IMG/VR virus record: IMGVR_UViG_3300046318_000522
Coordinates: 1-22,460 of that record
Source: a virus
Reading direction: 5' to 3' (one strand)
DNA length: 22,460 nt
The position numbers and the translations under genes are program-made. Below the pieces are notes generated by a model, which had not been told where the DNA came from, made no database searches, and saw nothing but the letters and a program-made list of their open reading frames with translations. Positions 113-21,690 of the stretch are shown here, piece by piece; the first letter of the stretch is position 1, and each line of letters starts with the position of its first letter.

Positions 113-128
113 TTAACTTCGGAGTTAA
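113..128. repeat. TTAAC-N6-GTTAA palindrome, site 1 (perfect)
   Basis: Core TTCGGA; arms perfect, extended by A/T pairs at 112 and 129. It lies about 70 bp upstream of the first gene's start. It is a member of the window-wide dispersed family. Confidence 0.9.
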
Positions 129-197
129 TTCCCCGTTATTCCGGCGCTATGGGTGGGAATGGATTGTCCATCAGCCCTATCAGATGAGGAACCTAGC

Positions 198-1058
198 ATG
201 ACCAAGATCAACGCCACTGCTGCCGACCGCGCCGCCGCCGCCCGCGCCCTCGTGCTCTCCGCCATGATGGACGCCGAAAGCGCAAGCGTCGCAGCGATCA
301 ACGAAATGCTGGAGGCGAACGCCCCCGGCATCGGCGATAACAAGGGGCCTGCCTTCGCCGACGTCTACGCTGCAGCGGAGGCCTGCCAAGATTACGCCAA
401 GGCGATAGAACTCTCCGCAAGCCTCGCAGCCTCCGCCAACGCCACCGGCGAGCTGGCCAAGCAGAACCAATTGCGCTGGTGGATCGGCACGGCGAGCGCT
501 CTTGCCCGGATTAACTTTGACGTTAAGGACGACGCCAAATGCGCGGAAGTGGTCAAGGCCCGGTGGCCGTCCATCGATAGTGCTCTCAAGGCGCGCGTCG
601 CTTGGCTCCGCCTCTATGTGCGCGCCGCTAAGTCCGGCATGTTGCGCGGCACGGTCGACGCCGTGATGCGCAATTATCAGGGCGGCGAGAGCCTTGAGAA
701 CAACGTCTATGCCGTGCTCGTCGAGGCCAAGCGCATCGCGGCGGAGAAGGGCAACAAGACCGAAGCGCTCGCGCCGCTCTCGCCGAGCAAGGTCGAGGAC
801 GTCATGTCGGGCAAGCTGGCGACCAAGCGCGCCGCTGACGCCGCGGCGAGCCGCGACGCCAAGAAGGCGGAGAAGGCGACGCAAGTGTCCGCGGAAAGCA
901 TCGTCATGACGCTGGCGCGCGAGATCGCCGACAAGGAGGGCGTCGAGGCGGACGTCGCGCACTTGGTCGCCCTGTTCAAGACCAAGCTGGAAGCCGCCAT
1001 CGCGGAGCGGACGCCGGTCACCTCGGCGAAGAAGCTGCAGGCGAAGAAGGCGAAGTGA
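198..1058 (+). CDS. Ala/Lys-rich hypothetical protein, 286 aa
   Basis: Function not recognised. The start at ATG 198 is preferred over an in-frame GTG at 153 because GAGGA (186-190) sits 7 nt upstream of it. The protein is largely helical in appearance and rich in Ala. Its C-terminal third is strongly basic, with Lys/Ala runs (about residues 205-235) and a tail ending in repeated AKK-type motifs, which could suit nucleic-acid binding; that is inference. A TTAAC-N6-GTTAA palindrome (511-526) lies inside the gene and encodes I-N-F-D-V-K. The gene is followed 6 nt later by a strong terminator, so it is probably a single-gene unit or the last gene of an upstream operon. No catalytic motif is visible. 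Confidence 0.85.
   Translation: MTKINATAADRAAAARALVLSAMMDAESASVAAINEMLEANAPGIGDNKGPAFADVYAAAEACQDYAKAIELSASLAASANATGELAKQNQLRWWIGTASALARINFDVKDDAKCAEVVKARWPSIDSALKARVAWLRLYVRAAKSGMLRGTVDAVMRNYQGGESLENNVYAVLVEAKRIAAEKGNKTEALAPLSPSKVEDVMSGKLATKRAADAAASRDAKKAEKATQVSAESIVMTLAREIADKEGVEADVAHLVALFKTKLEAAIAERTPVTSAKKLQAKKAK
511..526. repeat. TTAAC-N6-GTTAA palindrome, site 2 (perfect, intragenic)
   Basis: Core TTTGAC. It lies inside the 198-1058 gene in the frame xTT-AAC-NNN-NNN-GTT-AAx. Confidence 0.9.
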
Positions 1059-1064
1059 GATCGA

Positions 1065-1090
1065 GCGCCCCCGAAAGGGGGCGCTTTTTT
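1065..1090 (+). terminator. Rho-independent terminator
   Basis: The stem GCGCCCCC (1065-1072) pairs perfectly with GGGGGCGC (1077-1084) around a GAAA tetraloop and is followed by six T (1085-1090). It ends the transcript of the 198-1058 gene. Confidence 0.95.
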
Positions 1091-1108
1091 GCGTCCCGAC
1101 GATCCACG

Positions 1109-1124: not shown

Positions 1125-1125
1125 T

Positions 1126-1269: not shown

Positions 1270-1331
1270 ATATGGACCTAGCTTTTTGGATCGAAAAGAT
1301 GACAGCATCGGTGCGTGGAAGGTCCGCTAAA

Positions 1332-3044: not shown

Positions 3045-3331
3045 GGGAGGAAGCCCTGCGCCGCGTCGCGCTGATCTTGGCGGCAATCCATAGTGTCAGG
3101 CCCTACCACAGCAAGTCCGCCACGCACGTCTATCTGTTCCGAGGGCCCGGCAAGAAAGGCTACGTGCTGCGCCGCTTGGGCTCTTCGGAAAAATGGACGG
3201 GGTGGAAGCGCAATGAAAAAGGGGACTGGGTTGGCCGTGCGCACTTGCCGCAGACCCTAGTCCTCCCCCTGCTGGCTCAAGCCCTCCTCTTCGCAGAAGA
3301 CCATGATAGCAAGCATTATCCTCGAAGTTAA
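3041..3331 (+). CDS. Small hypothetical protein, 96 aa, paralogue set A
   Basis: Not recognised. ATG 3041 overlaps the preceding TGA (ATGA), so it is translationally coupled. Residues 1-20 form a helix (RRVALILAAIHSV). The middle is basic and Trp-rich (EKWTGWKRNEKGDW). The C-terminal helix begins HLPQTLVLPLLAQALLF and matches the pattern of its neighbours at 2751 and 3346. The TAA stop (3329-3331) lies in the right arm of a degenerate palindrome. Probably a diverged duplicate; biochemical role unknown. Confidence 0.8.
   Translation: MREEALRRVALILAAIHSVRPYHSKSATHVYLFRGPGKKGYVLRRLGSSEKWTGWKRNEKGDWVGRAHLPQTLVLPLLAQALLFAEDHDSKHYPRS
3316..3331. repeat. TTAAC-N6-GTTAA palindrome, site 7 (one mismatch)
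   Basis: TTATC-CTCGAA-GTTAA. The right arm provides the TAA stop of the 3041-3331 gene; the next start codon is 14 bp on. Confidence 0.75.
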
Positions 3332-4126: not shown

Positions 4127-4142
4127 TTAACTTGGAAGTTAA
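4127..4142. repeat. TTAAC-N6-GTTAA palindrome, site 8 (perfect)
   Basis: Core TTGGAA. Its right arm abuts the Shine-Dalgarno AAAGGAGAG of the 4154 gene. Confidence 0.9.
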
Positions 4143-4955: not shown

Positions 4956-4987
4956 AGGCGGAGCTCCACCAGCTCCGCCTTTTCTTT
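4956..4987 (+). terminator. Rho-independent terminator running into a palindrome
   Basis: AGGCGGAGCT (4956-4965) pairs perfectly with AGCTCCGCCT (4971-4980) around CCACC. The T-rich tail TTTTCTTT continues directly into palindrome site 9. Confidence 0.9.
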
Positions 4988-5001
4988 AACCTCGACGTTA
5001 A
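4986..5001. repeat. TTAAC-N6-GTTAA palindrome, site 9 (perfect)
   Basis: Core CTCGAC. It overlaps the terminator T-tract and precedes the 5021 start by 19 bp. Confidence 0.9.
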
Positions 5002-5574: not shown

Positions 5575-5759
5575 GCAAACCGCTTTGGAGAAGCACGTAC
5601 CTACGACGCCCCAAGCAGCTGATCCTCGTCTACGTCGAGGCGCTGACCGAGGCGGACGCGGTGCGCAAGACGCGCATGCAGGTCGCCAAGAAATACTCCG
5701 GCCTTAACCTCCAGTTTAAGGATGGACCCGTACTCGCCAACCATAAAGGAACCAACTGA
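5571..5759 (+). CDS. Small basic hypothetical protein, 62 aa
   Basis: Not recognised. ATG 5571 overlaps the previous stop (ATGA) and follows AGGAGA. The sequence has a beta-strand, helix (EALTEADAVRKTRMQVAKKY), strand pattern and is strongly basic. Palindrome site 10 is in its coding sequence and encodes L-N-L-Q-F-K, the same frame used by all intragenic copies. It ends with a TGATG overlap with the next gene. Confidence 0.75.
   Translation: MSKPLWRSTYLRRPKQLILVYVEALTEADAVRKTRMQVAKKYSGLNLQFKDGPVLANHKGTN
5704..5719. repeat. TTAAC-N6-GTTAA palindrome, site 10 (one mismatch, intragenic)
   Basis: TTAAC-CTCCAG-TTTAA. With flanks, the 18-mer CTTAACCTCCAGTTTAAG is the exact reverse complement of positions 16096-16113. 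Confidence 0.8.
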
Positions 5760-6133: not shown

Positions 6134-6294
6134 GCAGGCCGTTCGTCCCGCCCAAGCCGAAACAGCACAACGCGCATGTCACCTCATGGGTGAGCGCGCG
6201 TCTGCGCCGCAAGAAACAGAAGAAGTTGGCGGACCAAGCCATCCAAAACATTAACTTGACAGTTAATACCAAGTGTGGTATAAAGGTAGAGTAA
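6130..6294 (+). CDS. Small basic protein, 54 aa
   Basis: ATG 6130 overlaps the preceding TGA (ATGA). The product is strongly basic, with RLRRKKQKK around residues 25-33, and Pro-rich at the N-terminus (RPFVPPKPKQ), which could suit RNA or DNA binding. The last 16 codons run through palindrome site 11 and the promoter for the next gene, so this frame and the regulatory site share DNA. The palindrome portion encodes I-N-L-T-V-N in the frame used elsewhere. The overlap-type start and long open frame support a real gene, though its shortness leaves doubt. Confidence 0.5.
   Translation: MSRPFVPPKPKQHNAHVTSWVSARLRRKKQKKLADQAIQNINLTVNTKCGIKVE
6251..6266. repeat. TTAAC-N6-GTTAA palindrome, site 11 (perfect, over -35)
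   Basis: The core TTGACA is itself a consensus -35 hexamer. Flanking A/T extends the dyad to 18 bp (6250-6267). Confidence 0.95.
6256..6284 (+). promoter_or_regulatory. Strong sigma70 promoter inside the palindrome
   Basis: TTGACA (6256-6261), 17-nt spacer, TATAAA (6279-6284). It is close to ideal for host RNA polymerase and drives the 6319-9905 genes. A protein bound to the palindrome would cover the -35, so this promoter is probably repressed, or controlled, by whatever binds the dispersed sites. Confidence 0.8.
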
Positions 6295-6318: not shown

Positions 6319-7260
6319 ATGAATGCGCATACCGAGATCAACCACGGCCTGATCGACGCCCTGCAAAGCACGGGCATGCTGATCCGCCTGAGCACGTCCA
6401 GCTTCGGCACGCAGGCGACCGACCGGGAGAAATCCCGCGAGGTCACCGAGAACGCCAGCGCATCATCCGATGCCGCGCGCGTCGTCGTCAACCGCCTGCC
6501 CGGCAAGGCCAAGCTGCATCACGCCAAGATCAGCAAGCTGCAAGGCTTAGCCCGGCAGGTCATCAACGACATGACCACCCCATGGGACGAGAGCGGCTGG
6601 CGTCTGCTGCTGACCACCCGCTTCGATGAGCTGGCCAAGGCGCTGGCCTTCGTCAAGGGCGACTTCGATGCCGCCAAGTCGGCGCTCGCGGCCAATGCCG
6701 ACGACGTGCTCAGCGACGCCAAGACCGCGCTCGGCAGTCTGGGGGCCAACGTGCGCATGCCTTCGACGCGGGAGATGGTCGAGGCCTATGACATGAAGAC
6801 CGAGATCGTACCGATACCGGACGGCGCTCAGTTCAGGAACCTTCCTGATAGCACCAAACGCATCCTCCAAGCGCGCCTCGACAAGCAGATCGAACGCGCC
6901 TACCAGCGCGGCGTCGAGAGCATCATGGAGCGCGTGCAGCCGATGCTGGCGAGCGTGGTCGAGCGGCTCAATGCCTACGATGACCGCCTCGCCAAGCAGG
7001 CCGCTGGCGAGGACGTGGGCCGCACCGGCGCGTTCCGCGACACGCTCGTCTACAACATCGCCCCCGTCGCCGAGCTGGTCAGCTCATTGGCCGGGGCCAC
7101 CAAGGATGCACGGCTCATCGAGCTGCACACCAAGCTCTCGCAGATTGTCCAGCACCAGCCGGATGAGCTGCGGGCGAACGACGCCACCCGCGCGCACGTC
7201 AAGCAAGAGGCCAATGCTGCCTTGGCGCTGTTCGACGAGTGGACGTTGCCTACCGCGTAA
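6319..7260 (+). CDS. DUF3150-like protein upstream of MoxR/VWA pair, 313 aa
   Basis: ATG 6319 follows AGGAGAG. The protein is mostly helical. An N-terminal part of mixed charge (about 1-70) is followed by basic, helical segments (KAKLHHAKISKLQGLARQVI), a conserved-looking TPWDESGWRLL stretch (about 93-103), long alanine-rich helices and another helical segment around 185-290. In length, helical nature and position directly before a MoxR ATPase and a VWA protein, it fits the DUF3150 proteins found in such phage and plasmid clusters. This assignment rests on context and general resemblance rather than a catalytic motif. It probably acts with the ATPase and VWA protein as an accessory. The promoter at 6256 lies just upstream. 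Confidence 0.6.
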   Translation: MNAHTEINHGLIDALQSTGMLIRLSTSSFGTQATDREKSREVTENASASSDAARVVVNRLPGKAKLHHAKISKLQGLARQVINDMTTPWDESGWRLLLTTRFDELAKALAFVKGDFDAAKSALAANADDVLSDAKTALGSLGANVRMPSTREMVEAYDMKTEIVPIPDGAQFRNLPDSTKRILQARLDKQIERAYQRGVESIMERVQPMLASVVERLNAYDDRLAKQAAGEDVGRTGAFRDTLVYNIAPVAELVSSLAGATKDARLIELHTKLSQIVQHQPDELRANDATRAHVKQEANAALALFDEWTLPTA

Positions 7261-7263: not shown

Positions 7264-7279
7264 TTAACTTCAAGCTTAA
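7264..7279. repeat. TTAAC-N6-GTTAA palindrome, site 12 (one mismatch)
   Basis: TTAAC-TTCAAG-CTTAA, 3 bp after the 6319-7260 stop and 38 bp before the MoxR start. Confidence 0.8.
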
Positions 7280-8445: not shown

Positions 8446-8461
8446 TTAACCTAGAGGTTAC
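8446..8461. repeat. TTAAC-N6-GTTAA palindrome, site 13 (one mismatch)
   Basis: TTAAC-CTAGAG-GTTAC. It ends 1 bp before the ATG of the metallopeptidase/VWA gene; the only Shine-Dalgarno-like sequence (AGAGG, 8453-8457) is inside the palindrome. Confidence 0.8.
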
Positions 8462-8462: not shown

Positions 8463-9905
8463 ATGGCAACCCTTGTTCCAGCCAACCACGCTGACTTCGA
8501 TCCCGAGATGGACGCGCAGCGCTCCGGCATCGTCGAAGTCAAGCTCACCCCTGAGCAGCACCAGAAATACATGGAGGCGCGCACCGCGCTCCTCTGGGCG
8601 GCGCGCTTCTTCGCCGTGATCTTCTACGAGCGCACCTCCGTGATCTTCACCAATGACGTGCCGACGCTCGCCACCGATGACCGCGTCATCCTCGTCAACC
8701 CGGAGTTCTTCTGCAACCTGACTGTCGGCGAGCGCGTGTTTACCCTCTGCCATGAGGTGGCGCACATGATCTACGCCCACTGCCAGCTGGGCTGGGAGGC
8801 CCGCCGTCAGGGGTATATCCGCGTGATCAACGGCGCGACGCAGCTGCACCCGGACGCCCCTGCCGGATGCCTGCCGTTTGTCCCGATGCTCATGAACATT
8901 GCGCAGGACTTCATGATCAACGCCGCGTTGGTCGAGTGCAAGGTCGGCACGTTCCGGCAGGGGTGGCTGTTTAACCCCAAGTTTACCGGCAACATGTCTA
9001 CCGTGGACATCTACCATACGCTGTTCAAGCTCCAGCCTCCGAAGCCGGAGCCGGAGCCGGAGCCGCAGCAGGGCAAGCCGGACAAGGACAGCGCGCCCGA
9101 GGCACAGGAGGGCAAGCCGGGGTCTAAGCCGGGCGATGATCCCGGCGACAGCGGCGGGGTCGAGCTGCCCATCGGCACCACGGGCAAGGGGCGCTTCGAT
9201 CAGCACCTCAAGCCGGGCGAGGCGCAGGGCAAGGATGCGCGCGAAGCCGCGTCCGAGCGTGAAGCTGAAGCTGGCGAATGGAAGCTCGCCGTCACCAAGG
9301 CTGCGCAAGCCGCCAAGATGGCGGGGCAGATGCCTGCAGGGTTGGAGCGCCTGATCAACGAGATCATCCAGCCGCAGGTCGATTGGCGCGAGCTGATCAT
9401 CGGCTGCTTCGCCCGCTCGCTGGGCGGCGGCGGCTACGACTGGCGGCGTCCTGATCGCGACTGGATCAACCGCGCCAAGCGCGTCTATGTTCCAGCTCGC
9501 TCCGGCAAGGGCGCGGGCGTCGTGGTCGTGGTTGGCGACACGTCCGGGTCGATGACCGATGAGGAGATGAAGATGGTGCTGGGCTGCGTGGTCGGTGTTC
9601 TGGAAGAGGCCAAGCCGCAGAAGATCATTCTCATGTGGTGCGACGCCAAGCTCTACATCGACGGCGAGTATGACGACGCTGCCGATCTGCTCACCCGCGC
9701 CAAGCCCAAGGGCGGCGGCGGCACCTGCTTCCGCCCGCCGTTCGAATGGCTTGAACAGAATGACATCGTGCCGGATACGCTGCTCTACGTGACCGACATG
9801 TACGGCACTTTTCCAGACCGCGAGCCTGCCTACCCCGTGATCTGGGGGTCGATCAGCAAGGTGCTCGATGCCCCGTTCGGCACGGTCGTTCCCATCCCGC
9901 GCTAA
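8463..9905 (+). CDS. Metallopeptidase-like/VWA domain protein (DUF2201 type), 480 aa
   Basis: Two-domain partner of the MoxR ATPase. The N-terminal domain carries a zincin motif HEVAH (97-101) in LCHEVAHMIYAH, expected to bind zinc. Residues about 188-270 are a Pro/Glu/Gly/Lys-rich low-complexity linker with a PEPEPEP run. The C-terminal VWA-like domain has a MIDAS motif DTSGSM (Asp359-Ser361-Ser363) plus later TD (VTDMYG), expected to bind Mg2+ and the partner. This arrangement matches the putative metallopeptidase/VWA family DUF2201. ATG 8463 is fixed by AGAGG within the adjoining palindrome. Whether the HExxH site is an active protease is not known. A degenerate palindrome lies at 8971-8986. 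Confidence 0.9.
   Translation: MATLVPANHADFDPEMDAQRSGIVEVKLTPEQHQKYMEARTALLWAARFFAVIFYERTSVIFTNDVPTLATDDRVILVNPEFFCNLTVGERVFTLCHEVAHMIYAHCQLGWEARRQGYIRVINGATQLHPDAPAGCLPFVPMLMNIAQDFMINAALVECKVGTFRQGWLFNPKFTGNMSTVDIYHTLFKLQPPKPEPEPEPQQGKPDKDSAPEAQEGKPGSKPGDDPGDSGGVELPIGTTGKGRFDQHLKPGEAQGKDAREAASEREAEAGEWKLAVTKAAQAAKMAGQMPAGLERLINEIIQPQVDWRELIIGCFARSLGGGGYDWRRPDRDWINRAKRVYVPARSGKGAGVVVVVGDTSGSMTDEEMKMVLGCVVGVLEEAKPQKIILMWCDAKLYIDGEYDDAADLLTRAKPKGGGGTCFRPPFEWLEQNDIVPDTLLYVTDMYGTFPDREPAYPVIWGSISKVLDAPFGTVVPIPR
8971..8986. repeat. Degenerate TTAAC-N6-GTTAA site 14 (two mismatches, intragenic)
   Basis: TTAAC-CCCAAG-TTTAC, encoding F-N-P-K-F-T in the standard frame. It could be a decayed copy or a chance match. 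Confidence 0.4.
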
Positions 9906-10000: not shown

Positions 10001-10729
10001 ATGTCTAGACGAAATGTCAAGAGCACCCTACGTGATCTAGCGCCCGGTATCGTGGGTGACCTGATGCTGCGCACCCTCTACGCCGACATGCCGCGCCGCA
10101 CCGTGCAGGAGTGGCAGGAGCTGGTGACCGAGCCCGAACACCTTCAGATGCTGTGGGTCGCCGAGGCCATCACCGACCGGCTCTACAAAGCGCCCAAGCT
10201 GTATCTGCCATTCAGCCATCCGGTCGATGGCGAGCAGGTGCGGTTCAATGTCGAAATATCCGCACGCGGCGTCGGAGGCTTGTCCTTCTATGAAGTCAAG
10301 CACAACCTGTTCATCCCGTTTAACTCCGAAGTTAAAGAGGAGCTTGTGAGCTATTACGACACGGCCATCGACGCAGGCGTCGTGCAGTTTGCAGTGCTGC
10401 GCGCCGTCGAGTTCACCAGCAGCGACGCTCAGCTCGCTAAGCTGTGGCCGCAGCTGGCGACGCTTGCTGAAGCCACGCATCCCATCCTCTCGCAGGATGC
10501 ACGAGTGGCCGCGCGCCGCGCGCGCCTCTCCCCGGTGCCGGAAGAGCTGCGAGAGATCATCGACTTCGCCCAGCACCAGCTGGCGATGGCCGCTCTGCTG
10601 GACCTTCCGCCTGACGAAGAGCTGCGCTCAATATGCAGGGTCTCGGTGGACGTGCAGGACCGGATAAAGCATGGGTTCCAACTGCGAAGCTACCCGACCT
10701 ATACGATTGCGCCGCGCACCACCCGCTGA
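10001..10729 (+). CDS. Hypothetical protein, 242 aa
   Basis: Not recognised. ATG 10001 has AAGG about 10 nt upstream. Residues about 1-60 are helical, 60-110 look beta-rich (LYLPFSHPVDGEQVRFNVEI...FYEVKHNLFIPF), and residues 115 to about 220 are helical and Arg-rich. It carries palindrome site 15 in the middle of the gene, encoding F-N-S-E-V-K. It stands between the MoxR/VWA trio and the replication operon and is closed by a strong terminator. It may be the last gene of the MoxR/VWA transcript if the 9913 hairpin is leaky. No enzyme motif is visible. Confidence 0.8.
   Translation: MSRRNVKSTLRDLAPGIVGDLMLRTLYADMPRRTVQEWQELVTEPEHLQMLWVAEAITDRLYKAPKLYLPFSHPVDGEQVRFNVEISARGVGGLSFYEVKHNLFIPFNSEVKEELVSYYDTAIDAGVVQFAVLRAVEFTSSDAQLAKLWPQLATLAEATHPILSQDARVAARRARLSPVPEELREIIDFAQHQLAMAALLDLPPDEELRSICRVSVDVQDRIKHGFQLRSYPTYTIAPRTTR
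10320..10335. repeat. TTAAC-N6-GTTAA palindrome, site 15 (perfect, intragenic)
   Basis: Core TCCGAA, with T/A extending the dyad to 18 bp. Confidence 0.9.
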
Positions 10730-10979: not shown

Positions 10980-12857
10980 TTGCAATTCCTGTATTTCGAC
11001 GCCGAGACGTTCTATACGGACGAATACTCGCTGCGCAAAATGACGACCGTCGAATACATCATGGACCCGCGCTTCGAGCTGCTGGGCGCATCAGTTGCGC
11101 TGGGCGACGCGCCGGTGCGCTGGGTTCATGCCAAAGATATGACAGCATTTTTGGGCAGCGTGGACTGGGGACAGACGGCGCTTGTCTCCCACAACACGCA
11201 GTTCGATGGCGGCGTGCTGGCCTTCCGGCTGGGCCGCGTCCCGCGCCTCTACTGCGACACGTTGAGCATGGCCCGCGCCCTCCTGCAGCACAAGCTGCGC
11301 TCGCTGGCGCTGAAGGCCGTGGCCGAGTTCCTTAACCTTGGGGTTAAAGGGGACACCATCCACCAGATGAAGGGCGTCACGGCGCGCTACCTGCTGGAGA
11401 ACCCGGCCTTCCACCGCGAAGTGGAGATTTACGCCAACAACGACAATGAGCTGTGCCGGAGCATCTTCACTCTGCTCAAGCCGCACTTCCCCAAGACCGA
11501 GTTCGCCATCGTGGATATGGTCATGCGCATGTTCTGCGAGCCGCGCATCCAGCTCGATGTCGGCATGCTTAGCGTCCACCTGCAGGGTGTGAAACAGCAC
11601 AAGCGCATGCTGCTCGACCGCATGGGCTTCCAAGACGCCACCAGCCTGATGTCCAACGACCAGTTTGCGCAGGAGCTGCTGAAGCGCGGCGTCGAGCCGC
11701 CTATGAAGATTTCCGCGGTAACCGGCAAGCAGTCCTACGCCTTCGCCAAGACCGACCCCGGCCTCAAGGATTTGGCGGAGCATGACGACCCGGAAGTGCA
11801 GTCGCTCGTCGCCGCTCGTCTTGGCCATAAGTCTACGCTGGAGGAGACCCGCACCGAGAAGCTGATCCGTATCGGCTCGCGCTCGCAGAGCTGGGCTGTG
11901 CGCGCTCCGTGGTGCCCGATGCCGCTGCGCTACTCCGGCGCGCACACACATCGCCTCTCCGGCTCGGATGGGCTGAACGTCCAGAACTTCCCGCGCGGCG
12001 GCACGATCCGCAAGGCGCTGAGGGCCCCGGCGGGCTATGTCTTCATGGCCCCCGACCTGTCGCAGATCGAGGCGCGTATCGTCTGCTGGCTGGCTGGCGC
12101 GCAGATGCTGGAAGTGTTCCGGCGCGGCGAAGACCCCTACCGCTATCAGGCCATCCAGATCGGCGCGCTGCAGCCCGACTGGGGCAAGGACCATCCCGAG
12201 TTCGCCAACGGTCGCCAGCTCGGCAAGGGTCTGGTGCTCGGCTGTGGCTTCGGCATGGGTCCGCCGAAATTCCAGCTGACCGTGGCCAAGCCGCCCTACA
12301 ACATGAACCTGACGCTGGGCGAGGCGCAGACCGCCGTCTACGGCTATCGCAACTCCAACCCGGAGATCGTAGCGCTGTGGAAGACCCTGCAGACTGCCCT
12401 GTCGATGCTCGCCCGGCACCCGGCGGGCTCCCGGCTCGGCACCTACGCCGAGACCGTGCACGGGCTGGCCTACGAAGTGCGCGACGACACCGTGCAGATG
12501 CTCCTGCCGTCCGGCCTGCACCTCAAATACGAGGGGCTGTGCCACACCGGCGACGGCATGAACTTCATGTACGCCGGGCAGAAGCAGTACGTCTACGGCG
12601 GAAAGGCGGCGGAGAACCTTGTTCAGGCGCTTGCCCGCTGCGTCATCATGGAGGCGGCGCTGCGCGTCAAGCGCGAGATCAATCTGTGGCCCGCCCTGCA
12701 GGTCCATGACGAAAACGTCTACCTCGTTCCCGAAGACAAGGTGACGATCTACGAGCCGATCATCCGTGCATCCATGACAGCATCGCCGCCTTGGGCCCCA
12801 ACCCTTCCGGTGCAGACCTCCATCGCCATCGCGCACACCTATGGGGATGCCAAGTGA
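10980..12857 (+). CDS. Family A DNA polymerase with 3'-5' exonuclease, 625 aa
   Basis: Replicative phage polymerase of the Pol I family, lacking a 5'-3' exonuclease domain. Exonuclease motifs are FDAE (Asp7, Glu9), HNTQFD (Asn72, Asp76) and Y-x3-D (Tyr151, Asp155). Polymerase motifs are A, PDLSQIE (Asp359-Glu364); B, R412-x3-K416 leading to FG at 424-425; and C, VHDE (575-578). The TTG start at 10980 is chosen because GGAG (10968-10971) is 8 nt upstream and any later start would remove the first exonuclease motif. Palindrome site 16 lies within the gene. It overlaps the next gene by 4 nt (GTGA). It is first in the replication operon, behind the promoter at 10906. Confidence 0.95.
   Translation: MQFLYFDAETFYTDEYSLRKMTTVEYIMDPRFELLGASVALGDAPVRWVHAKDMTAFLGSVDWGQTALVSHNTQFDGGVLAFRLGRVPRLYCDTLSMARALLQHKLRSLALKAVAEFLNLGVKGDTIHQMKGVTARYLLENPAFHREVEIYANNDNELCRSIFTLLKPHFPKTEFAIVDMVMRMFCEPRIQLDVGMLSVHLQGVKQHKRMLLDRMGFQDATSLMSNDQFAQELLKRGVEPPMKISAVTGKQSYAFAKTDPGLKDLAEHDDPEVQSLVAARLGHKSTLEETRTEKLIRIGSRSQSWAVRAPWCPMPLRYSGAHTHRLSGSDGLNVQNFPRGGTIRKALRAPAGYVFMAPDLSQIEARIVCWLAGAQMLEVFRRGEDPYRYQAIQIGALQPDWGKDHPEFANGRQLGKGLVLGCGFGMGPPKFQLTVAKPPYNMNLTLGEAQTAVYGYRNSNPEIVALWKTLQTALSMLARHPAGSRLGTYAETVHGLAYEVRDDTVQMLLPSGLHLKYEGLCHTGDGMNFMYAGQKQYVYGGKAAENLVQALARCVIMEAALRVKREINLWPALQVHDENVYLVPEDKVTIYEPIIRASMTASPPWAPTLPVQTSIAIAHTYGDAK
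11332..11347. repeat. TTAAC-N6-GTTAA palindrome, site 16 (perfect, intragenic)
   Basis: Core CTTGGG, encoding L-N-L-G-V-K between exonuclease motifs II and III of the polymerase. Confidence 0.9.
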
Positions 12858-13237
12858 CCGACCGCAATACCGCTCTGTTCAATCGCTGGTGCACTGGCGT
12901 GTCCTGCACGGCGCTGGCGCGCGAGCAAGGCCTGACCCAGCAGCGCGTCAGCCAGATCATCCACGCGCAGCTCAAGAAGCTGCCGACGGGGCGCGCCGAG
13001 GAGCTGCGCGCCCGGCATCCGCACCAGCGGTACGGCTACCGCGGCTCCCGCCGCCTGATCGACCAGAACGAGGTCATCCGGCTGTGGAGGCTCGGTTTCA
13101 GCGCCCGAGAAATCTCCGAGATGCTCGGGGAAGTCAAAGGCTCCAAATTTAACCCGAACAGCATCTGCGCTGTCGTCGCCCTCGCCCGCAACGCAGGTGA
13201 GGACATCCCGAGGAGAAACCGCAATGGCCAGAAGTAA
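12854..13237 (+). CDS. Double helix-turn-helix protein, GcrA-like second HTH, 127 aa
   Basis: GTG 12854 overlaps the polymerase stop. Residues about 18-40 (CTALAREQGLTQQRVSQII) form a sigma-region-4-like HTH. Residues about 73-112 contain LWRLGFSAREISEMLG and then a loop and NSICAVVALAR, which resembles the GcrA pattern LW-x2-G-x-S-x3-I-x3-LG followed by a recognition helix. GcrA is an alphaproteobacterial transcription factor acting at methylated GANTC; only the HTH layout is similar here. It probably binds DNA. It is the only clear DNA-binding regulator in the window, so it is a candidate binder of the dispersed palindromes or of the host's sites. Its stop overlaps the following gene. Confidence 0.75.
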   Translation: MTDRNTALFNRWCTGVSCTALAREQGLTQQRVSQIIHAQLKKLPTGRAEELRARHPHQRYGYRGSRRLIDQNEVIRLWRLGFSAREISEMLGEVKGSKFNPNSICAVVALARNAGEDIPRRNRNGQK

Positions 13238-13637
13238 GATGATCAAATCCCCCGGACTGCTGCTGCCGCTCCCTGACGAGCACGACGTTTACGTCGAGCC
13301 GCAGGCTGAGCTTGCAGCTGAGAATAACATCGAAGTTAATGAGCACGTTCCCGGCGATAACCTGATCGTGCAGACTGACAATTCGGTGCCGGAGAGCCAG
13401 TGGCGGAGCGTCGGCGGCGTGATCGTGCGCCCGCACACCTATGAAGCTCCGACCTATGACGACCCCAGCGAAAAAGCATGGTCGCTGTCGGAACAGGAGC
13501 GCGAAATGATCTATTACGGCGTCGTCGCCATGAAGAACGATCCGACCGAAGTCGGCGTCTGCTTCAACATCGGGCCGGAAGTTGTGCTCAAGGTCATTGA
13601 GATCGAGAGCGAACGCCTCGCCAGCGCTCCCGCCTGA
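13224..13637 (+). CDS. Hypothetical protein, 137 aa
   Basis: Not recognised. ATG 13224 is placed by GAGGAG (13210-13215), 8 nt upstream; it overlaps the HTH gene by 14 nt. The N-terminal 60 residues are acidic, Pro-rich and probably flexible. The second half contains an EREMIYYGVVAMKNDPTEVG helix-turn followed by a C-terminal helix (PEVVLKVIEIESERLA), which could be a small helical DNA- or protein-binding unit. Palindrome site 17 is in the coding sequence, encoding N-N-I-E-V-N. Role unknown; expected co-expression with the polymerase. Confidence 0.8.
   Translation: MARSKMIKSPGLLLPLPDEHDVYVEPQAELAAENNIEVNEHVPGDNLIVQTDNSVPESQWRSVGGVIVRPHTYEAPTYDDPSEKAWSLSEQEREMIYYGVVAMKNDPTEVGVCFNIGPEVVLKVIEIESERLASAPA
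13324..13339. repeat. TTAAC-N6-GTTAA palindrome, site 17 (one mismatch, intragenic)
   Basis: ATAAC-ATCGAA-GTTAA, in the standard frame. Confidence 0.7.
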
Positions 13638-15860: not shown

Positions 15861-17331
15861 TTTTGGCGGCGAGCGCAAACTGGTGGTTCCGCATGGTCTG
15901 GATGAGACCATACTCCTGCGGAACCTTGGCATTTCCGCTCCGGCCCCCATCCTGACGCATTATGACTGGGCGGGCGGCACGCCCTATGACGTGCAGCGCA
16001 AGACGGCTGCGCTGCTGACGACCAACCTGCGCGCCCACTGCCTCAATGGCATGGGGACCGGCAAGACCAAGGCCGCGCTGTGGTCTGCCGACTTCCTTAA
16101 ACTGGAGGTTAAGATCAACCGTGTGCTGGTGGTTGCGCCGCTCTCGACGCTGGCGGACGTCTGGTATCGCGAAATCTTCCGCACCATCCCGCACCGCTCG
16201 GCGGTGATCCTGCACGGCACGCGCGAGCGCCGCCTCAAGCTGCTGGCCGAGGAGCATGACTTCTACATCGTCAACCATGACGGCGTCGGCGTGATCAAGG
16301 AAGAGCTGCTGGCGCGCACCGACATCGACGCCGTCATCCTCGACGAGGCGGCGGTCTACCGCAACAATCAAGCGATCCGCACCAAGCTGATGCGCAAGAT
16401 CACGGAGGGCCGCAAGGTTGTCTGGGGCCTGACCGGCTCGCCTACCCCGCAAGCGCCGACCGACGCTTTCGCGCAGGCGCGCATCATCACGCCGTGGACT
16501 GTCGCTGGCGTCAGTTTCACCATGTTCCGCGATCAGGTCATGTACAAGCAGGGCCCGTTTGTCTGGCGGGAGAAGCAAGACGCCACCGAGCGGATCGCCG
16601 AAATCCTGTCGCCCGCCGTGCGCTACACGCTGGACGACGTCGTGGAGCTGCCGGAGATCGTCTACCAGCACGAGACCGTGCCGTTGTCGCCCAACGCCGC
16701 CAAAATCTACAAGAAGCTCTCCAAGGAGATGCTGGCTCAGCTGACGGGCGGCGAGGTGTCGGCGGTCAACGAGGGCGTGCTGCGCAACAAGCTCCTGCAG
16801 GTGGCCTGCGGCTGGGCCTACGGCGCAGACGGCAAGTGCATCGAGATCGACGCCCATCATCCGCGGTTGGAGAAGCTGATTGAAGTGGTGGAGGCCTGCG
16901 CGCGCAAGGTGATCGTCTTCTGCCCGTTCACAGAGCCGATGAAGAACATCTCCAAGCACCTGACCAAGGCCGGGCTCAAGAACGAAATGATCTGGGGCGG
17001 CACGTCGCAGGTGCAGCGCGGAACGATCTTCCAGCAGTTCCGCGCAGACCCCAAGATGAAAGCCATCGTGGCGCATCCCGGCACCATGGCGCACGGCCTG
17101 ACGCTGACCGAGGCCGACACGATCATCTGGTTCTCCCCGACCTCGTCGCTGGAGACCTTCGAACAAGCCAATGCCCGTATCCGGCGCATTGGCCAGAAAT
17201 CCAAGCAGCTCATCGTCATGTTGGGCGGCACGGATGTAGAGCGGAAGACGTACCGCGACCTTGAGAGAAAGCAGAAGTTTCAGAACTCTCTGCTGGACCT
17301 CTTGCAGGAAGAAACTGCAACCCACGAGTAG
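15772..17331 (+). CDS. SNF2-type superfamily 2 helicase/ATPase, 519 aa
   Basis: Superfamily 2 DNA translocase related to phage SNF2/DEAD-like helicases. Motifs: I GMGTGKT (93-99, Lys98), II LDEAA (Asp191-Glu192), III LTGSPT, V GLTLTEADTI and VI QANARIRRIGQ (465-475). Motif II is DEAA rather than DEAH. The start at 15772 is supported by GGAGG (15758-15762) 9 nt upstream, even though this overlaps the VRR-NUC gene by 89 bp. Palindrome site 18 lies after motif I. It probably remodels forks or recombination intermediates together with the adjoining nuclease; the VRR-NUC plus SNF2 helicase pairing is common in phage replication modules. Confidence 0.92.
   Translation: MVVVSKAHKSLVIPFRADVANVIPLARTFDFGGERKLVVPHGLDETILLRNLGISAPAPILTHYDWAGGTPYDVQRKTAALLTTNLRAHCLNGMGTGKTKAALWSADFLKLEVKINRVLVVAPLSTLADVWYREIFRTIPHRSAVILHGTRERRLKLLAEEHDFYIVNHDGVGVIKEELLARTDIDAVILDEAAVYRNNQAIRTKLMRKITEGRKVVWGLTGSPTPQAPTDAFAQARIITPWTVAGVSFTMFRDQVMYKQGPFVWREKQDATERIAEILSPAVRYTLDDVVELPEIVYQHETVPLSPNAAKIYKKLSKEMLAQLTGGEVSAVNEGVLRNKLLQVACGWAYGADGKCIEIDAHHPRLEKLIEVVEACARKVIVFCPFTEPMKNISKHLTKAGLKNEMIWGGTSQVQRGTIFQQFRADPKMKAIVAHPGTMAHGLTLTEADTIIWFSPTSSLETFEQANARIRRIGQKSKQLIVMLGGTDVERKTYRDLERKQKFQNSLLDLLQEETATHE
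16097..16112. repeat. TTAAC-N6-GTTAA palindrome, site 18 (one mismatch, intragenic)
   Basis: TTAAA-CTGGAG-GTTAA, encoding L-K-L-E-V-K. The 18 bp 16096-16113 are the exact reverse complement of 5703-5720. Confidence 0.8.
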
Positions 17332-17340: not shown

Positions 17341-17760
17341 ATGGACGACGCGCAGCCTAGAGACGACCTGAACACCCGAGCTCAGCAGATGCAGATGGTC
17401 CGCGACAAGATCGACCAGATCGAGGAGCGGCATAAGGAAGAGCTGGCCCCCTACAAGGCGGTCAAGGAGCAGCTGGAGGCTTTCTTTCTTGAGCAGTTCA
17501 ACACGCTTGGCGTGGATAACTTCAAGAGCAAAGACGGCGCAACTGTGTACAAGATCACCGACGCCTCCGCCACCGTTGCGGACGGTGAGGCCTTCAGGCA
17601 GTATGTGCAGGACCACGACGCCTTCGAGCTGGCGGACATCCGCGCCAACAAAACAGCGGTGCGCGAGTTTGTCGAGGCCCATGGCACACAGCCGCCCGGC
17701 ATCAACTATTCAACGCGGTTCAAGCTCGGTTTCCGCCGCGCGCCCGCGAAGAAGTCTTAA
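17341..17760 (+). CDS. Gp157-like hypothetical protein, 139 aa
   Basis: ATG 17341 follows AGGAGAG. Residues about 10-60 form a charged coiled-coil-like helix (MVRDKIDQIEERHKEELAPYKAVKEQLEAFF). After it come a short strand pair (FKSKDGATVYKI) and a C-terminal part ending with PPGINYSTRFKLGFRR. A helical N-terminus followed by a short beta region is reminiscent of phage Gp157-type proteins and other replication-module coiled coils; this is resemblance, not a firm match. It lies between the helicase and the Cys-cluster protein, so a role in DNA replication or recombination is likely. The stop TAA (17758-17760) is supplied by palindrome site 19. Confidence 0.75.
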   Translation: MDDAQPRDDLNTRAQQMQMVRDKIDQIEERHKEELAPYKAVKEQLEAFFLEQFNTLGVDNFKSKDGATVYKITDASATVADGEAFRQYVQDHDAFELADIRANKTAVREFVEAHGTQPPGINYSTRFKLGFRRAPAKKS

Positions 17761-17772
17761 CCTCTAGTTTAA
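17757..17772. repeat. TTAAC-N6-GTTAA palindrome, site 19 (one mismatch)
   Basis: TTAAC-CTCTAG-TTTAA. It overlaps the stop of the upstream gene and is 13 bp before the next start; AGGAG follows its right arm. Confidence 0.8.
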
Positions 17773-17785: not shown

Positions 17786-18724
17786 ATGTCCAATATTGTT
17801 CCGTTCAACACCAGCAAGCTCGCAACCCTTTTCGGCGCTCGCGCCAACATCTTCGGCGACGTCACCCAAGGTATCACTGAGGGCTTTGCGACCATGCGCT
17901 ACAAGGGCAAGGTCTGGAAGTGGAAGAAGGGCGGCACCGAGACGATCATCACCGACGACGAGGGCGAGCCCGTCCGCAGCATCGAGGTGGTCATCGTCAA
18001 CGCCTCCAGCGCGATCAGCAAGCACTACTACGAGAGCAAGTTCTCGGAAGGTCAGGATACAGGCGCTCCGACCTGCTGGTCCGTCAATGGCGTAACGCCG
18101 GACGCTGCTTCTCCCAAGAAGCAGCACTCGTCCTGCGTCTCCTGCCCGAAGAACATCTTCGGCTCGCATGTCAGCGACGCAGGCGTCGCCAGCAAGGCCT
18201 GCTCCGACCGCCGCCGCCTCGCCATTGTGCCGACCGCTGCGCTCCTGCAGGGCAAGGAAAGCATCTTCGGCGGGCCGATCCTGATCTCGGTTCCTCCGAC
18301 CTCGCTCAAGGCGCTGGCGCAGTATCAGAAAGAGTGCATGCAGCTCGGCGGCTTCCCCTACTACGCCGTCAGCACGCGCATCTCCTTCGATGCGGAGAGC
18401 GCGCACCCGAAGTTCAAGTTCAAGGCGGTGCGCCCCTTGGAAGAGAACGAGGCCGAGATGGTCATCGCGCTGGCGATGGACGACGTCACTCAGCGCATGT
18501 TGAACGTCGCCGTTGAGGAGGATGTGAAGCACGAGGAGCCGGTCAAGGAAGAGCCCAAGAGCTTCTTCGAGCAGCCGGTCGAGACGGCTAAGGCGGCAGC
18601 GCCGGAAGTCGAGAAGCCCAAGGCGACGCGCGCCAAGAAGGAAGCCGTCCCCGCAGCGCAGGAGACCAAGCCTGTCGCCGCTGGGTCAGACCTTGACGCG
18701 GCGCTGAGCGGACTGTTCGGCTGA
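17786..18724 (+). CDS. Cys-cluster protein of replication module, 312 aa
   Basis: Not firmly recognised. ATG 17786 follows AGGAG. Residues 1-90 are mixed alpha/beta with a basic patch (KGKVWKWKKGG). Cys97, Cys117, Cys120 and Cys139 (C-x2-CPKN ... KACSDRRRLAIVP) look like a zinc or Fe-S site. A further domain spans about 150-245. The remainder (about 245-300) is a Lys/Glu/Ala-rich tail ending DLDAALSGLFG, acidic then hydrophobic, which loosely recalls single-stranded-DNA-binding protein tails. The location directly before the primase-helicase makes a single-stranded-DNA-binding or primosome role possible. A ribosome-binding site near palindrome site 19 suggests regulation. Confidence 0.7.
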   Translation: MSNIVPFNTSKLATLFGARANIFGDVTQGITEGFATMRYKGKVWKWKKGGTETIITDDEGEPVRSIEVVIVNASSAISKHYYESKFSEGQDTGAPTCWSVNGVTPDAASPKKQHSSCVSCPKNIFGSHVSDAGVASKACSDRRRLAIVPTAALLQGKESIFGGPILISVPPTSLKALAQYQKECMQLGGFPYYAVSTRISFDAESAHPKFKFKAVRPLEENEAEMVIALAMDDVTQRMLNVAVEEDVKHEEPVKEEPKSFFEQPVETAKAAAPEVEKPKATRAKKEAVPAAQETKPVAAGSDLDAALSGLFG

Positions 18725-18794: not shown

Positions 18795-21635
18795 ATGGAC
18801 GCCGCTACGTTCCTTCGCCGCATTTTGCCCGACACGCAGGACGGGTTCTTCTCTGTGCATTTCATGGACCATACAAAGCCCAAAGGTCAGGGCTTCTGGG
18901 GCCGGGCGTTCAAAGACAAGAACGAGATCGAGAAGTGGGCCAAGTGGGCCTCGCAGCGCAACATGTGCGCCTACTACGCAATGGCTTCATACAAGACCGC
19001 CAGCGTCCGCCAGCAGGCCAACGGCCCAGCGTCCTATACGCCCACGCGCACCGCGGTGAACGCCGCCGCCATGAAGGCGCTGTGGATGGACATCGACATC
19101 GGCAAGCCGGGCGCATACGAGACGATTAACCTCGCCGTTAATGCGGTGGCTGAATTTGTGAAAGACACCGGGGTGCCGAAGCCGACCATCATGGTGGGCT
19201 CCGGGTCTGGCCTGCACGTCTACTGGACGCTGACCAAGACCATCACCCCGACCGACTGGGCGCTCCTTGCGAACGCCCTGAAGAACGCAGCATCGACCTA
19301 CGGGCTCCTGCAAGACCCCACGAGGACAGCTGATCCGGCAAGTGTTTTGCGTGTGCCGGACACCCTCAACTGGAAGTCAAAGGAACACCCGAAACAGGTC
19401 AAGGTGCTGGGTGCGCGCCCGGAGGACTACACCCCCGAGCAGATGCGAGACGCTCTGTCGCCCTACATGGTGGCAACACGCCCGGCTGGTCCGGCGCTGC
19501 TGCCGGGCTTCGGAGACTTGACGGCTGGCCTTGGCGGAGCCGCCAAGCCAGTCGATCTGACCCTCGTCCTGCCCGAGTGTGAAGTCCTCCGTGTCGCTGC
19601 AGAAACAGGCGGTGAAGCCTATGAAGAGCCGCTGTGGTATCAGACGCTGCGCGCGGCAAGCTACACGGATAAAGGGCGCGAATGGGCGCATACGATGTCC
19701 AAGGGGCATCCCAAATACGACCCCGGCGAGACCGACAAGAAGTACGACCAAGCCGTGGTGGCGAAAGAGCAGAACGACCTTGGCTGGCCGCGCTGCTCGC
19801 AGTTTGCTCAGCACCGCTCGACCGTCTGCGCCAAATGCCCACACTTCAGCGAGGGCAAGAGCCCGCTCAATTTCCGCAAGGGCGAGACCAACGACCTGCC
19901 GCCGCCCTACCTGCGCCACCCGCCGACCGGCCTGATCTACGTGCCGCTTGCGGCCAAGGGTGACGATGAGACCGAGCAGCGCACCACCGTGCCGATCCTT
20001 GACTACCCGCTGTATGACGCCCAGCTGGTCATGTCGGAAGGCAAGCAGGCGATCCGCTTCACCGCCCACATCCGCAGGAATACTGCCGTGCATCCGGTGG
20101 CCGTGACCGTACCGCTGGAGCGGCTCGGCGACGCCAAGCAGCTGGTCGCCCTGCTCAACGGGCAGGGACTGATCGTCAGTGCAGCCTACCGCGAACGCAT
20201 TGGGGAATTTCTTATGGCATGGACAAAGAAACTGCAGCGCGCGAGCGATCTGACGACCAACCCGGCGTTCGGCTGGGCGCGCGAGGGCGGCAAGACGCTG
20301 GGCTTTTCCTTTGCGGGCGCGTGCCACTCCGGCAAGGACGAGCTGCCGGTGATGGAGACCGACGCAGCGCTGAAGGACGGCTACACCCCGCATGGCGCAC
20401 TCGCCGCATGGCGCAAGGCGTCAGAATATATCTCGACGCAAGGTCGCCCGCAGCTCGACGTGATGCTGGCTACGGCCTTCGCTGCGCCCTTGGTCGAGTT
20501 CACTGACGAGATGGGCATGGTCATGTCGTTCATCTCGCCCGGCTCCGGCACCGGCAAGACTTCCGGCATGCGCACGGCACAGGCGGTATGGGGCGATCCG
20601 CACTCCGAGATGAACGCGCTCAATGACACGTCGGCGTCCGTCGCCCACAAGCTTGGCGCGCTGCGCAATCTGCCGCTGTTCTGGGACGAGCTGCGCGGTG
20701 ACGAGGACAGCCTCAAGTTCACCCAGCTGGTGTTCAACGTCACGCAGGGCAAGGATAAGTCCCGCATGACAGCAACCATCGAGCGTCGGCAGGTGGGGAC
20801 GTGGAACACGATGATGATCGTGGCGTCGAACCAGTCGATCTTCGAGCGTATGAAGGACGGCGCGCCTGAGGGCCCGGCGGGCCAGTATCGCGTCTTCGAA
20901 ATCGTCGTGCCGCCGATCCCGCAGGGCGTGCGCAGCTTCGCCGACTTCGGCACCGTCGTTGGCAAGGTTCGTAACAATTTTGGACACGCCGGGCTGGTCT
21001 ATGCCAAATACCTCGGCGAGAACCATGAGAAGGTCCGCGACGCCGTCAAGCGCATGGCCGAGCAGATTATCGTCAAGGTTAAGGCGGACAACCCGGAGCG
21101 CTTCTGGGTCTACTCCATGGCGACGATCATCGTCGGCGCGCAGCTCTCGCGCGAGCTCGACTTGACCGACATCAACGTGCCCGCCATGGCGAAATACCTC
21201 TTGGACGAGGCGTTCCCGGCGATGCGCGAGCAGGTCTCAATGGACGCCAGCCCCGTGCAGACCGGGGACACGGCAGGCCTGCTGGTGGATTTTGTGCGGT
21301 CCCTGCAGCCAGATCGCTATATCGAGACTGACACCCTGCCGAGGCCGGGCCACAAGGACAGCGTCGTCATCCTGTCGAACGAGAAGCTGCTGCGGCGTGT
21401 GGACGCCCATCTGGTGACCGACACCGGCCAACTGCGCATCTCACGCAAGGCCTTCCTCGAATACCTCAAGTCGCAGGGGGCCTATCGCCGCGGCGTGTCA
21501 CAGGAGCTGGAGGCGGCGCTAGGTGCGCTCAAGTCCAACACCTACCTTGCGCCCGGCACACCTTTCCGGTCGAACTCCAAGGAGAACGTCTGGCTGCTGG
21601 ACACCAATCACCCACAGCTCGGGGCGCTGAAGTGA
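18795..21635 (+). CDS. Primase-helicase (AEP-like primase + DUF927-type helicase), 946 aa
   Basis: Large replication protein. The N-terminal archaeo-eukaryotic-type primase/polymerase region shows WMDIDIG (Asp99, Asp101), GSGSGLH (His141) and LRVPDTLNWK. A Cys/His cluster follows (Cys334, Cys345, Cys348, His350). The C-terminal DUF927-like ATPase shows Walker A PGSGTGKT (Lys588), Walker B LFWDE (Asp631-Glu632) and sensor-like VASNQS. The last ~140 residues are probably a winged-helix DNA-binding domain (KAFLEYLKSQGAYRRGVSQELEAALG). The ATG 18795 ribosome-binding site is weak (GAGAA), so the start is less certain. It would prime and unwind DNA for the family A polymerase. Palindrome sites 20 and 21 are inside the gene. 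It ends the plus-strand operon. Confidence 0.9.
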   Translation: MDAATFLRRILPDTQDGFFSVHFMDHTKPKGQGFWGRAFKDKNEIEKWAKWASQRNMCAYYAMASYKTASVRQQANGPASYTPTRTAVNAAAMKALWMDIDIGKPGAYETINLAVNAVAEFVKDTGVPKPTIMVGSGSGLHVYWTLTKTITPTDWALLANALKNAASTYGLLQDPTRTADPASVLRVPDTLNWKSKEHPKQVKVLGARPEDYTPEQMRDALSPYMVATRPAGPALLPGFGDLTAGLGGAAKPVDLTLVLPECEVLRVAAETGGEAYEEPLWYQTLRAASYTDKGREWAHTMSKGHPKYDPGETDKKYDQAVVAKEQNDLGWPRCSQFAQHRSTVCAKCPHFSEGKSPLNFRKGETNDLPPPYLRHPPTGLIYVPLAAKGDDETEQRTTVPILDYPLYDAQLVMSEGKQAIRFTAHIRRNTAVHPVAVTVPLERLGDAKQLVALLNGQGLIVSAAYRERIGEFLMAWTKKLQRASDLTTNPAFGWAREGGKTLGFSFAGACHSGKDELPVMETDAALKDGYTPHGALAAWRKASEYISTQGRPQLDVMLATAFAAPLVEFTDEMGMVMSFISPGSGTGKTSGMRTAQAVWGDPHSEMNALNDTSASVAHKLGALRNLPLFWDELRGDEDSLKFTQLVFNVTQGKDKSRMTATIERRQVGTWNTMMIVASNQSIFERMKDGAPEGPAGQYRVFEIVVPPIPQGVRSFADFGTVVGKVRNNFGHAGLVYAKYLGENHEKVRDAVKRMAEQIIVKVKADNPERFWVYSMATIIVGAQLSRELDLTDINVPAMAKYLLDEAFPAMREQVSMDASPVQTGDTAGLLVDFVRSLQPDRYIETDTLPRPGHKDSVVILSNEKLLRRVDAHLVTDTGQLRISRKAFLEYLKSQGAYRRGVSQELEAALGALKSNTYLAPGTPFRSNSKENVWLLDTNHPQLGALK
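19126..19141. repeat. TTAAC-N6-GTTAA palindrome, site 20 (perfect, intragenic)
   Basis: Core CTCGCC, with A/T extending to 18 bp; encodes I-N-L-A-V-N. Confidence 0.9.
21067..21082. repeat. TTAAC-N6-GTTAA site 21 (one mismatch, atypical core)
   Basis: TTATC-GTCAAG-GTTAA, encoding I-I-V-K-V-K in the standard frame. The core departs from the usual YTYGAR, so this is a weaker member. Confidence 0.5.
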
Positions 21636-21674
21636 CCTACGACGCCCTCCCGCTCGACGTGGAGCTGGAGCAGA

Positions 21675-21690
21675 TTAACCTTGCGGTTAA
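21675..21690. repeat. TTAAC-N6-GTTAA palindrome, site 22 (perfect, convergent junction)
   Basis: Core CTTGCG. It lies between the end of the plus-strand operon and the minus-strand HNH-like gene, whose TAA stop (21689-21687) is inside the right arm. Confidence 0.9.

Follow-up and report, generated by a model that had tools for sequence, protein, structure and literature searches.

The IMG/VR virus record IMGVR_UViG_3300046318_000522 was analysed as one stretch of 22,460 bp, called here the window, and it carries a dispersed 16-bp inverted repeat (dyad) of the form TTAAC-N6-GTTAA. The window belongs to an unclassified phage of a little-known group close to phages of the RHph_TM27A kind, and the dyad is a trait of this family, with a sequence that differs between relatives and is nearly uniform within one genome. 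One viral protein probably reads all copies, to silence or organise the phage genome. The best explanation, to which we give a probability of about 0.5, is a stoperator-like genome-wide system in which the dyads would be the sites of a dimeric phage protein that silences transcription. This protein is most likely the self-regulated product of A5, an uncharacterised family represented in RHph_TM27A by QIG66858.1 and in the window probably by the product of gene 198-1058.

According to this proposal, a phage-encoded, dimeric, sequence-specific protein would occupy the dyads at tens of places in the early and late arms of the genome. A5 would regulate its own gene through the dyad lying just 5' of its start. 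Occupancy at gene junctions and within genes would most likely block initiation and elongation of transcription along the whole genome in the manner of stoperators, and its purpose would be prophage silencing or shut-off during growth. Since the sites are evenly spaced in half of the genomes, they may also help to fold or protect the phage DNA. Binding of A5 to the dyads, the silencing of transcription by this binding and the identity of the window gene as A5 are our inferences.

The dyads, their relatives and their hosts

The dyads are strongly enriched in the window. An earlier sequence-only reading had listed 12 perfect copies, all of which lie exactly where it placed them; it had expected far less than one by chance, and 100 dinucleotide shuffles yielded 0. 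Dyads with at most two mismatches number 23, against a shuffle mean of 1.39 and a largest value of 5, which bears out the further near-perfect copies it had noticed. Enrichment was also found over a codon-matched control, a codon-synonymous shuffle applied to the called genes only with intergenic DNA unchanged, in which 300 trials gave a mean of 5.9 and a maximum of 8 dyads of this quality. TTAA tetramers occur 47 times, 24 of them within perfect dyads and 38 within dyads of at most two mismatches, in agreement with the remark that most of them belong to these sites. A de novo dyad scan of the window ranked TTAAC-N6 first (n=12). By gene calls, 7 of the 12 perfect dyads are intergenic (1.4 expected) and 5 are internal, including the dyad at 6251, whose host open reading frame (ORF) is a doubtful one of 54 codons. 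At least eight sites, one-mismatch copies included, end 1-40 bp 5' of a start codon. The proposed centre YTCGAA holds in part: a preference for Y on the left side is visible in the sites, and the full YTCGAA is a loose tendency. The CtrA motif is a direct repeat, TTAA-N7-TTAA, and the inverted dyad is distinct from it, as had been stated.

A nucleotide search of 50,697 phage records gave no match to the window. At the protein level, the named phages closest to the window are the Rhizobium phages RHph_TM27A, TM27B, TM29 and TM3_14A, which are syntenic with it across the replication module; Pseudomonas phage Rollin stands further off. Primase and SNF2 alignments, each used in one scan of IMG/VR, reached at least 155 loci, counting the best 80 per scan and several loci from the same contig. 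The window motif is absent from RHph_TM27A, which carries TTACC-N6-GGTAA 26 times and TTACC-N5-GGTAA 8 times (0.04 expected each). A de novo scan covered 160 partly non-independent sequences; the top 5-mer dyad reached at least four copies in 64 of them, not all of TTAC type, and the non-inverted control did so in 7. TTACC-N5/6-GGTAA was present in at least one copy in 26 of 40 whole records, with a maximum of 58, a fraction that is not a census since these records were picked mostly for a previously seen dyad; the reversed-pattern control occurred 0 times in 38 of them and once in 2. The commonest class has an extended consensus of approximately GTTACC-T-Y-N-N-R-A-GGTAAC. Other half-sites among the relatives are TTACT-N5/6, TTACG-N5, TTACG-N7, TACTG-N3 and TGTTC-N4/GTTCC-N2. 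Conservation in related phages was found as a conservation of kind, with other half-sites, so that neither of the refuting outcomes named by the sequence-only reading, a lack of enrichment or a lack of conservation, was seen. Copy numbers are 58 in genome G001, 49 in G004, 34 in RHph_TM27A, fewer in other members and 12 in the window, and the spacing in the group is about one dyad per 1-4 kb.

The half-sites are lineage-specific even at homologous positions. In every one of 16 genome pairs, sites inside orthologous genes fall at common positions more often than by chance (2-7 such positions, 0.2-0.9 expected), an excess that is perhaps partly due to shared protein sequence. In a Thr-Val-Ala-Val stretch of protein cluster 17, genome G007 has TTACCGTGGCGGTAA, G026 has TTACGGTGGCCGTAA and G019 has TACTGTGGCAGTA. 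The TVAV residues are unchanged, so both arms were altered by synonymous substitutions. Homologous sites that carry each genome's own half-site are read as the mark of a trans-acting reader, and one half-site sequence per genome is expected if one viral protein reads all copies. The sites of the window itself match those of relatives in position only doubtfully. No such dyad was found in Rollin, KPP25 (scanned in part) or Aeromonas phiA008 (scanned in part), which partly share the replication module.

The placement of the dyads was counted for 465 perfect sites in 16 genomes with our own gene calls. Inside genes lie 254 sites, 151 are intergenic (41 expected), and the others are close to the 3' end (53) or the 5' end (7) of a gene. 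Among the intergenic sites, 82 of 150 end 0-29 bp 5' of the nearest downstream start. The intergenic excess, the clustering near starts and the site upstream of A5 point to gene control. Both arms are covered: in 15 genomes the early strand has 0.64 sites per kb and the late strand 0.38. The term genome-wide in the sequence-only reading could be judged on the relatives only, the window being a 22.5-kb fragment. Judged against 300 random placements, spacing is evener than random (p<=0.01) in 8 of the 16 genomes (G001, G002, G003, G004, G005, G020, G026 and G019) and marginally so in G007 and G018.

The sites are nearly two-fold symmetric, and their half-sites vary independently. Mismatches confined to one arm are far commoner in nine TTACC genomes than compensated ones, with 92 against 3 at half-site position 1, 50 against 4 at position 2 and 64 against 2 at position 5; A3 (5 vs 5) and C4 (4 vs 1) are nearly invariant. 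This independence favours DNA binding by a dimer over RNA pairing.

The dyads are concentrated on the phage element and not in the host. Searching bacterial genomes with the capsid alignment gave 18 loci, of which the closest are on a 60,568-bp contig of Bradyrhizobium genosp. SA-3 and a 61,049-bp contig of Bradyrhizobium sp. 139. The element of sp. 139 is apparently integrated and split over two contigs. The first carries host-type genes up to about 28 kb, which we take to be the housekeeping genes nadA/B/C and glyQ/S, followed by the structural module; the second (170 kb, first 24 kb examined) begins with the early module, including A5, after which comes a gene that by our own reading encodes a serine recombinase. 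Of these two Bradyrhizobium genomes, the one of 8.7 Mb has 9 of its 12 TTACC dyads on its 60.6-kb phage contig, and the one of 7.9 Mb has 11 of 13 on two phage-bearing contigs. The 3 and 2 dyads elsewhere are at or below chance, since the reversed-pattern control gives 9 and 10 in the whole genomes. A tyrosine integrase was found in 8 of 46 records, namely in 8 of 32 with the dyad against 0 of 14 others (Fisher p=0.08), and part of the group is temperate.

The A5 family as candidate reader

A5 is a family of about 245 amino acids (EVB29_028 in RHph_TM27A) that co-occurs with the dyads. When the called proteins of 23 sequences were clustered, A5 was present in 14 of 15 dyad-bearing genomes, the window not being counted, and in 0 of 6 dyad-less ones; the one dyad-bearing genome without it was G003, known as a fragment of 52.9 kb. 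A5 is likewise present in G038, which has 9 sites. A search of 50 records found A5 in 17, RHph_TM27A among them. Among held-out records of at least 55 kb, all 14 with A5 carry 10-20 perfect TTACC dyads, and the 10 without it carry 0-3 (G027 3, G036 1, G058 1, others 0), which makes an association of 14/14 against 0/10 (Fisher 5e-7, kinship not corrected for). Two fragments below 55 kb, G050 (5 sites) and G051 (19 sites), have both A5 and dyads. The capsid search led to 12 bacterial genomes, in 2 of which A5 was found by profile. The G001 copy was not found on plasmids, and in the phage collection it was found only in four RHph records.

A dyad stands upstream of A5 with unusual regularity. With at most one mismatch and within 160 bp, it is present before A5 in 13 of 15 genomes, the exceptions being G014 and G019; this rate of 87% is the highest of 31 clusters, the runners-up having 64%, and compares with a background of 370 of 1359 genes (27%; binomial 2.6e-6). 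All 15 relatives have A5 on the same strand as a MoxR-type gene and 0.9-8.9 kb upstream of it, in one case across the contig end. G056, which has a borderline A5 homologue (E=0.05), carries its own palindrome TTCCTCGTACGAGGAA four times, with two copies directly 5' of that gene. In G053 a palindrome is present in two copies only, one of them at its A5-like gene.

Comparison of A5 with PHROG gave no match, and Pfam gave only stray weak matches. The AlphaFold model of the G001 copy is all-helical and confident, with a predicted local distance difference test score (pLDDT) of 90.6 and a predicted template modelling score of 0.73. The best VIA result for the model was a designed protein (Z 6.8, 58 residues). 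The helix-turn-helix (HTH) protein encoded at 12854-13237, which the sequence-only reading had suggested as binder, was not supported as reader: it is among none of the 70 protein clusters listed, and it is the A5 family that tracks the dyads instead.

Gene 198-1058 of the window is the probable A5 gene, mainly by its position. It lies 7.1 kb upstream of the window ATPase gene (PHROG 1297), MoxR-like by our own reading, on the same strand and with a perfect dyad before it. Its match to the A5 profile is weak (P=0.15 with 73 columns in register, P=0.14 with 13 columns only). The structural model of its product, built with the A5 alignment, has block-mean pLDDT values of 72-88 over residues 131-270. 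Database searches with the product found nothing, and a structure search of the model against viral models found no fold relative.

Evidence against the proposed silencing by A5, alternatives and known systems

Several observations weigh against silencing by A5. No DNA-binding domain is recognisable in A5, and its model has no fold match in the PDB, with none found by Foldseek at E<=0.001. The early region of G004, of which 48 proteins were scanned, encodes several known DNA-binding domains (HTH, ribbon-helix-helix and zinc-finger families). A5 distance tracks motif distance no better than that of other genes (Mantel-type test, rank 20/26, rho 0.42), a counter-argument that is tempered by the mean A5 identity of about 29%, near saturation, against about 68% for the capsid protein. 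The link between A5 and the dyads is a correlation, for which kinship is a confounder. The A5-less G027 has three TTACC dyads, and at least five dyad-bearing fragments below 55 kb are without A5: G003 and G011, scanned whole, and G039, G040 and G043, whose dyads were seen in loci, other A5-less fragments having been scanned partly. G053 and G058, counted as A5-less, have remote A5-like ORFs and no TTACC dyad series; recounted as A5-bearing, they change the held-out table to 14/16 against 0/8. The own dyad of G058 is not upstream of its A5-like ORF. In the window, an iterated hidden Markov model search of A5 misses gene 198-1058, and the overall pLDDT of its model is 67.5. Spacing is not evener than random in RHph_TM27A, G006, G014, G017, G009 and the window. 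The N6 core is asymmetric relative to gene direction (p<0.002 in genes, p=0.044 between genes), perhaps through a codon effect within genes; for the N5 core, asymmetry was not significant (p=0.15 and 0.08). Finally, 24 of 32 dyad-bearing records have no tyrosine integrase, so silencing in lysogens can explain the dyads only in part.

The main rivals are another protein in place of A5 and, for function, an architectural or protective role. It is possible, if not favoured, that the reader is a different phage protein, such as a small uncharacterised early protein or an early protein of HTH type. The missing domain in A5, its divergence out of step with the motif and the DNA-binding domains encoded early in G004 all suit this possibility. 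Upstream dyads are also frequent for clusters 20 (64%), 26 (64%) and 9 (63%), and clusters 20 and 26 are likewise absent from the six dyad-less genomes. However, among the clusters listed, A5 alone combines presence in 14 of 15 genomes, absence from all six dyad-less ones and an upstream dyad in 87%.

It is somewhat doubtful that the sites are primarily architectural, that is, that the same kind of protein folds, condenses or shields the genome during infection and regulation is secondary. The coverage of both arms, the many sites within genes, the even spacing in half of the genomes and the scarcity of tyrosine integrases are in keeping with such a role. The intergenic excess, the 82 of 150 sites close to a start and the dyad before A5 argue against it, as does the lack of excess evenness in the six sequences named above.

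A role as parS-like centromeres of a phage-plasmid is very unlikely. The sites are palindromic and of 16 bp as in parS/ParB systems, and G004, among the richest genomes, has a ParA-like gene and a resolvase (44746-45405 and 16302-16922) and may be a phage-plasmid. However, parS sites are usually few and clustered. A ParA-type Walker A motif was found in only 2 of the 23 sequences, G004 and the dyad-less G035, ParB not having been searched for separately; this makes the general parS role entertained by the sequence-only reading improbable. The element of Bradyrhizobium sp. 139 is, moreover, apparently integrated in the chromosome. Apart from this, the circular 60-kb Photobacterium damselae plasmid p2_510 carries a related capsid gene and an annotated ParA, and is probably a phage-plasmid.

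Two further accounts are highly improbable. RNA hairpins at translation starts, acting as translational operators or as processing or termination signals, would fit the possible short stems and the many dyads just 5' of start codons; as the main account they were rejected by the excess of one-sided over compensated mismatches at three of five half-site positions, and the 254 of 465 sites in mid-gene and the single half-site sequence per genome also contradict them. Phage copies of sites for a host regulator or methyltransferase would fit motif differences linked to hosts, but the two Bradyrhizobium genomes hold no more dyads outside their phage contigs than the control, and specificity varies among phages of one group.

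Among known systems, the dyads are nearest in appearance to the unexplained dyads of Corndog, and we assign them to neither the Corndog nor the Cluster A type. According to the available part of the source, Cluster O (Corndog) mycobacteriophages carry 34 copies of a 17-bp dyad, TGTTCGG-NNN-CCGAACA, a symmetric dispersed repeat reported without known function (PMC4351075). In that part, the Corndog dyads resemble those described here in two-fold symmetry, invariant half-sites, intergenic and in-gene copies and little evidence of orientation (PMC4351075). More than 30 copies are likewise found in RHph_TM27A, G001 and G004, with fewer in others, and the dyad of G018 (TGTTCC/GTTCCG type) is similar in look. 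In contrast, the Corndog half-sites are 3 bp apart, as given in the same part, and mostly 5-6 bp apart here; the sequence is not TGTTCGG-NNN-CCGAACA, and the phage lineage is another. The Corndog repeat is common to all five genomes, and the part available proposes no protein (PMC4351075), whereas here the half-sites diversify and there is a candidate reader.

Cluster A stoperators are described, in the portions available, as asymmetric 13-bp sites oriented with transcription and bound by a repressor that is monomeric and combines an HTH with a further DNA-binding domain (PMC6550527, PMC9283540), and in the L5 clade the repressor gene is itself preceded by a conserved binding site (PMC6550527). 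As far as these portions go, the likeness lies in the tens of dispersed sites, the diversification of the motif and a site before the regulator gene (for A5 in 13 of 15 genomes, as site presence only). The difference is that the sites here are nearly symmetric inverted repeats, often in mid-gene, and that the candidate A5 has no recognised HTH. The start-associated sequences of Cluster K, in the part of the source available, are also short, dispersed and beside start codons (PMC4351075), whereas more than half of the present sites lie inside genes. The likeness to stoperators and to architectural-protein sites drawn by the sequence-only reading is upheld. It knew of no described family with this sequence, and a full-text literature search found no description of it either (the search was not exhaustive, and absence from print is not established); the kind has precedents in the Corndog dyads and the Cluster A stoperators.

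The question is directly testable, given a phage group with several specificities, the cultured RHph_TM27A and its kin, an apparently integrated Bradyrhizobium prophage and a candidate reader. If true, the stoperator-like proposal would describe a second stoperator-like immunity or genome-marking system, built on a different protein, and would offer naturally occurring variants in DNA specificity of a protein for which no fold match was found. The change of half-sites at homologous places is a clean case of concerted evolution of regulator and sites. Only tentatively can the dyads be called a new genome-marking system, in which an all-helical, HTH-less and self-regulated family would read symmetric sites every 1-4 kb, with concerted half-site switching; in temperate lineages and in those that apparently do not integrate, this would serve as a code of immunity type or genome identity.

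Features of the window and side observations

The dyads of the window and the candidate reader gene are as follows.

113-128: perfect dyad TTAACTTCGGAGTTAA, 69 bp 5' of ATG 198 and 24 bp 5' of GTG 153, two possible starts of gene 198-1058
198-1058, + strand: candidate A5-family gene, 286 amino acids, putatively dyad-binding and self-regulated, on the basis of position and a weak profile match
511-526: perfect dyad within the candidate A5 gene
1109-1124: one-mismatch dyad
1254-1269: perfect, fully palindromic dyad TTAACTTCGAAGTTAA in a large noncoding region
1962-1977: perfect dyad, 21 bp 5' of start 1999
2490-2505: perfect dyad, 10 bp 5' of start 2516
3316-3331: one-mismatch dyad, 14 bp 5' of start 3346
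4127-4142: perfect dyad, 11 bp 5' of start 4154
4986-5001: perfect dyad, 19 bp 5' of start 5021
5704-5719: one-mismatch dyad
6251-6266: perfect dyad over the -35 box of a promoter-like TTGACA-17-TATAAA (6255-6290, by eye), upstream of 6319-7260
7264-7279: one-mismatch dyad, 38 bp 5' of the ATPase (PHROG 1297) gene, start 7318
8446-8461: one-mismatch dyad immediately 5' of start 8463
8971-8986: two-mismatch dyad
10320-10335: perfect dyad within gene 10001-10729
11332-11347: perfect dyad within the DNA polymerase A gene
13324-13339: one-mismatch dyad
16097-16112: one-mismatch dyad within the SNF2 helicase gene
17757-17772: one-mismatch dyad, 13 bp 5' of start 17786
18501-18516: two-mismatch dyad
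19126-19141: perfect dyad within the DUF927 primase/helicase gene
21067-21082: one-mismatch dyad
21675-21690: perfect dyad at the junction of convergent genes, which end at 21635 (+) and 21687 (-)

The replication module of the window is encoded on the + strand and comprises the ATPase (PHROG 1297), a DUF2201 metallopeptidase/VWA protein, DNA polymerase A, the SNF2 helicase and the DUF927 primase. In the noncoding stretch 1330-1690 the word TCTTAC recurs, the palindrome ATCTTACGTAAGA is present twice, and an inverted repeat of 31 nt has its arms at 1559-1589 and 1657-1687. This stretch is possibly an origin or an early control region.

Other dispersed repeats were seen among the records. G058, which shares the replication module, has the dyad CTTATA-N4-TATAAG in 15 copies in 58 kb. 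G045 has TGTGA-N6/GACAC-N0 in 11 copies, G049 has GATTC-N13 in 17 and G057 has CACTA-N5 in 7. In RHph_TM27A, the 'putative integrase' EVB29_077 (42248-45331) is a homologue of the DUF927 primase/helicase of the window, and its annotation as an integrase, perhaps together with the att sites of that record, looks doubtful. The same phage carries a cluster of ten related small genes of about 75 amino acids at 21659-25035 (cluster 66).

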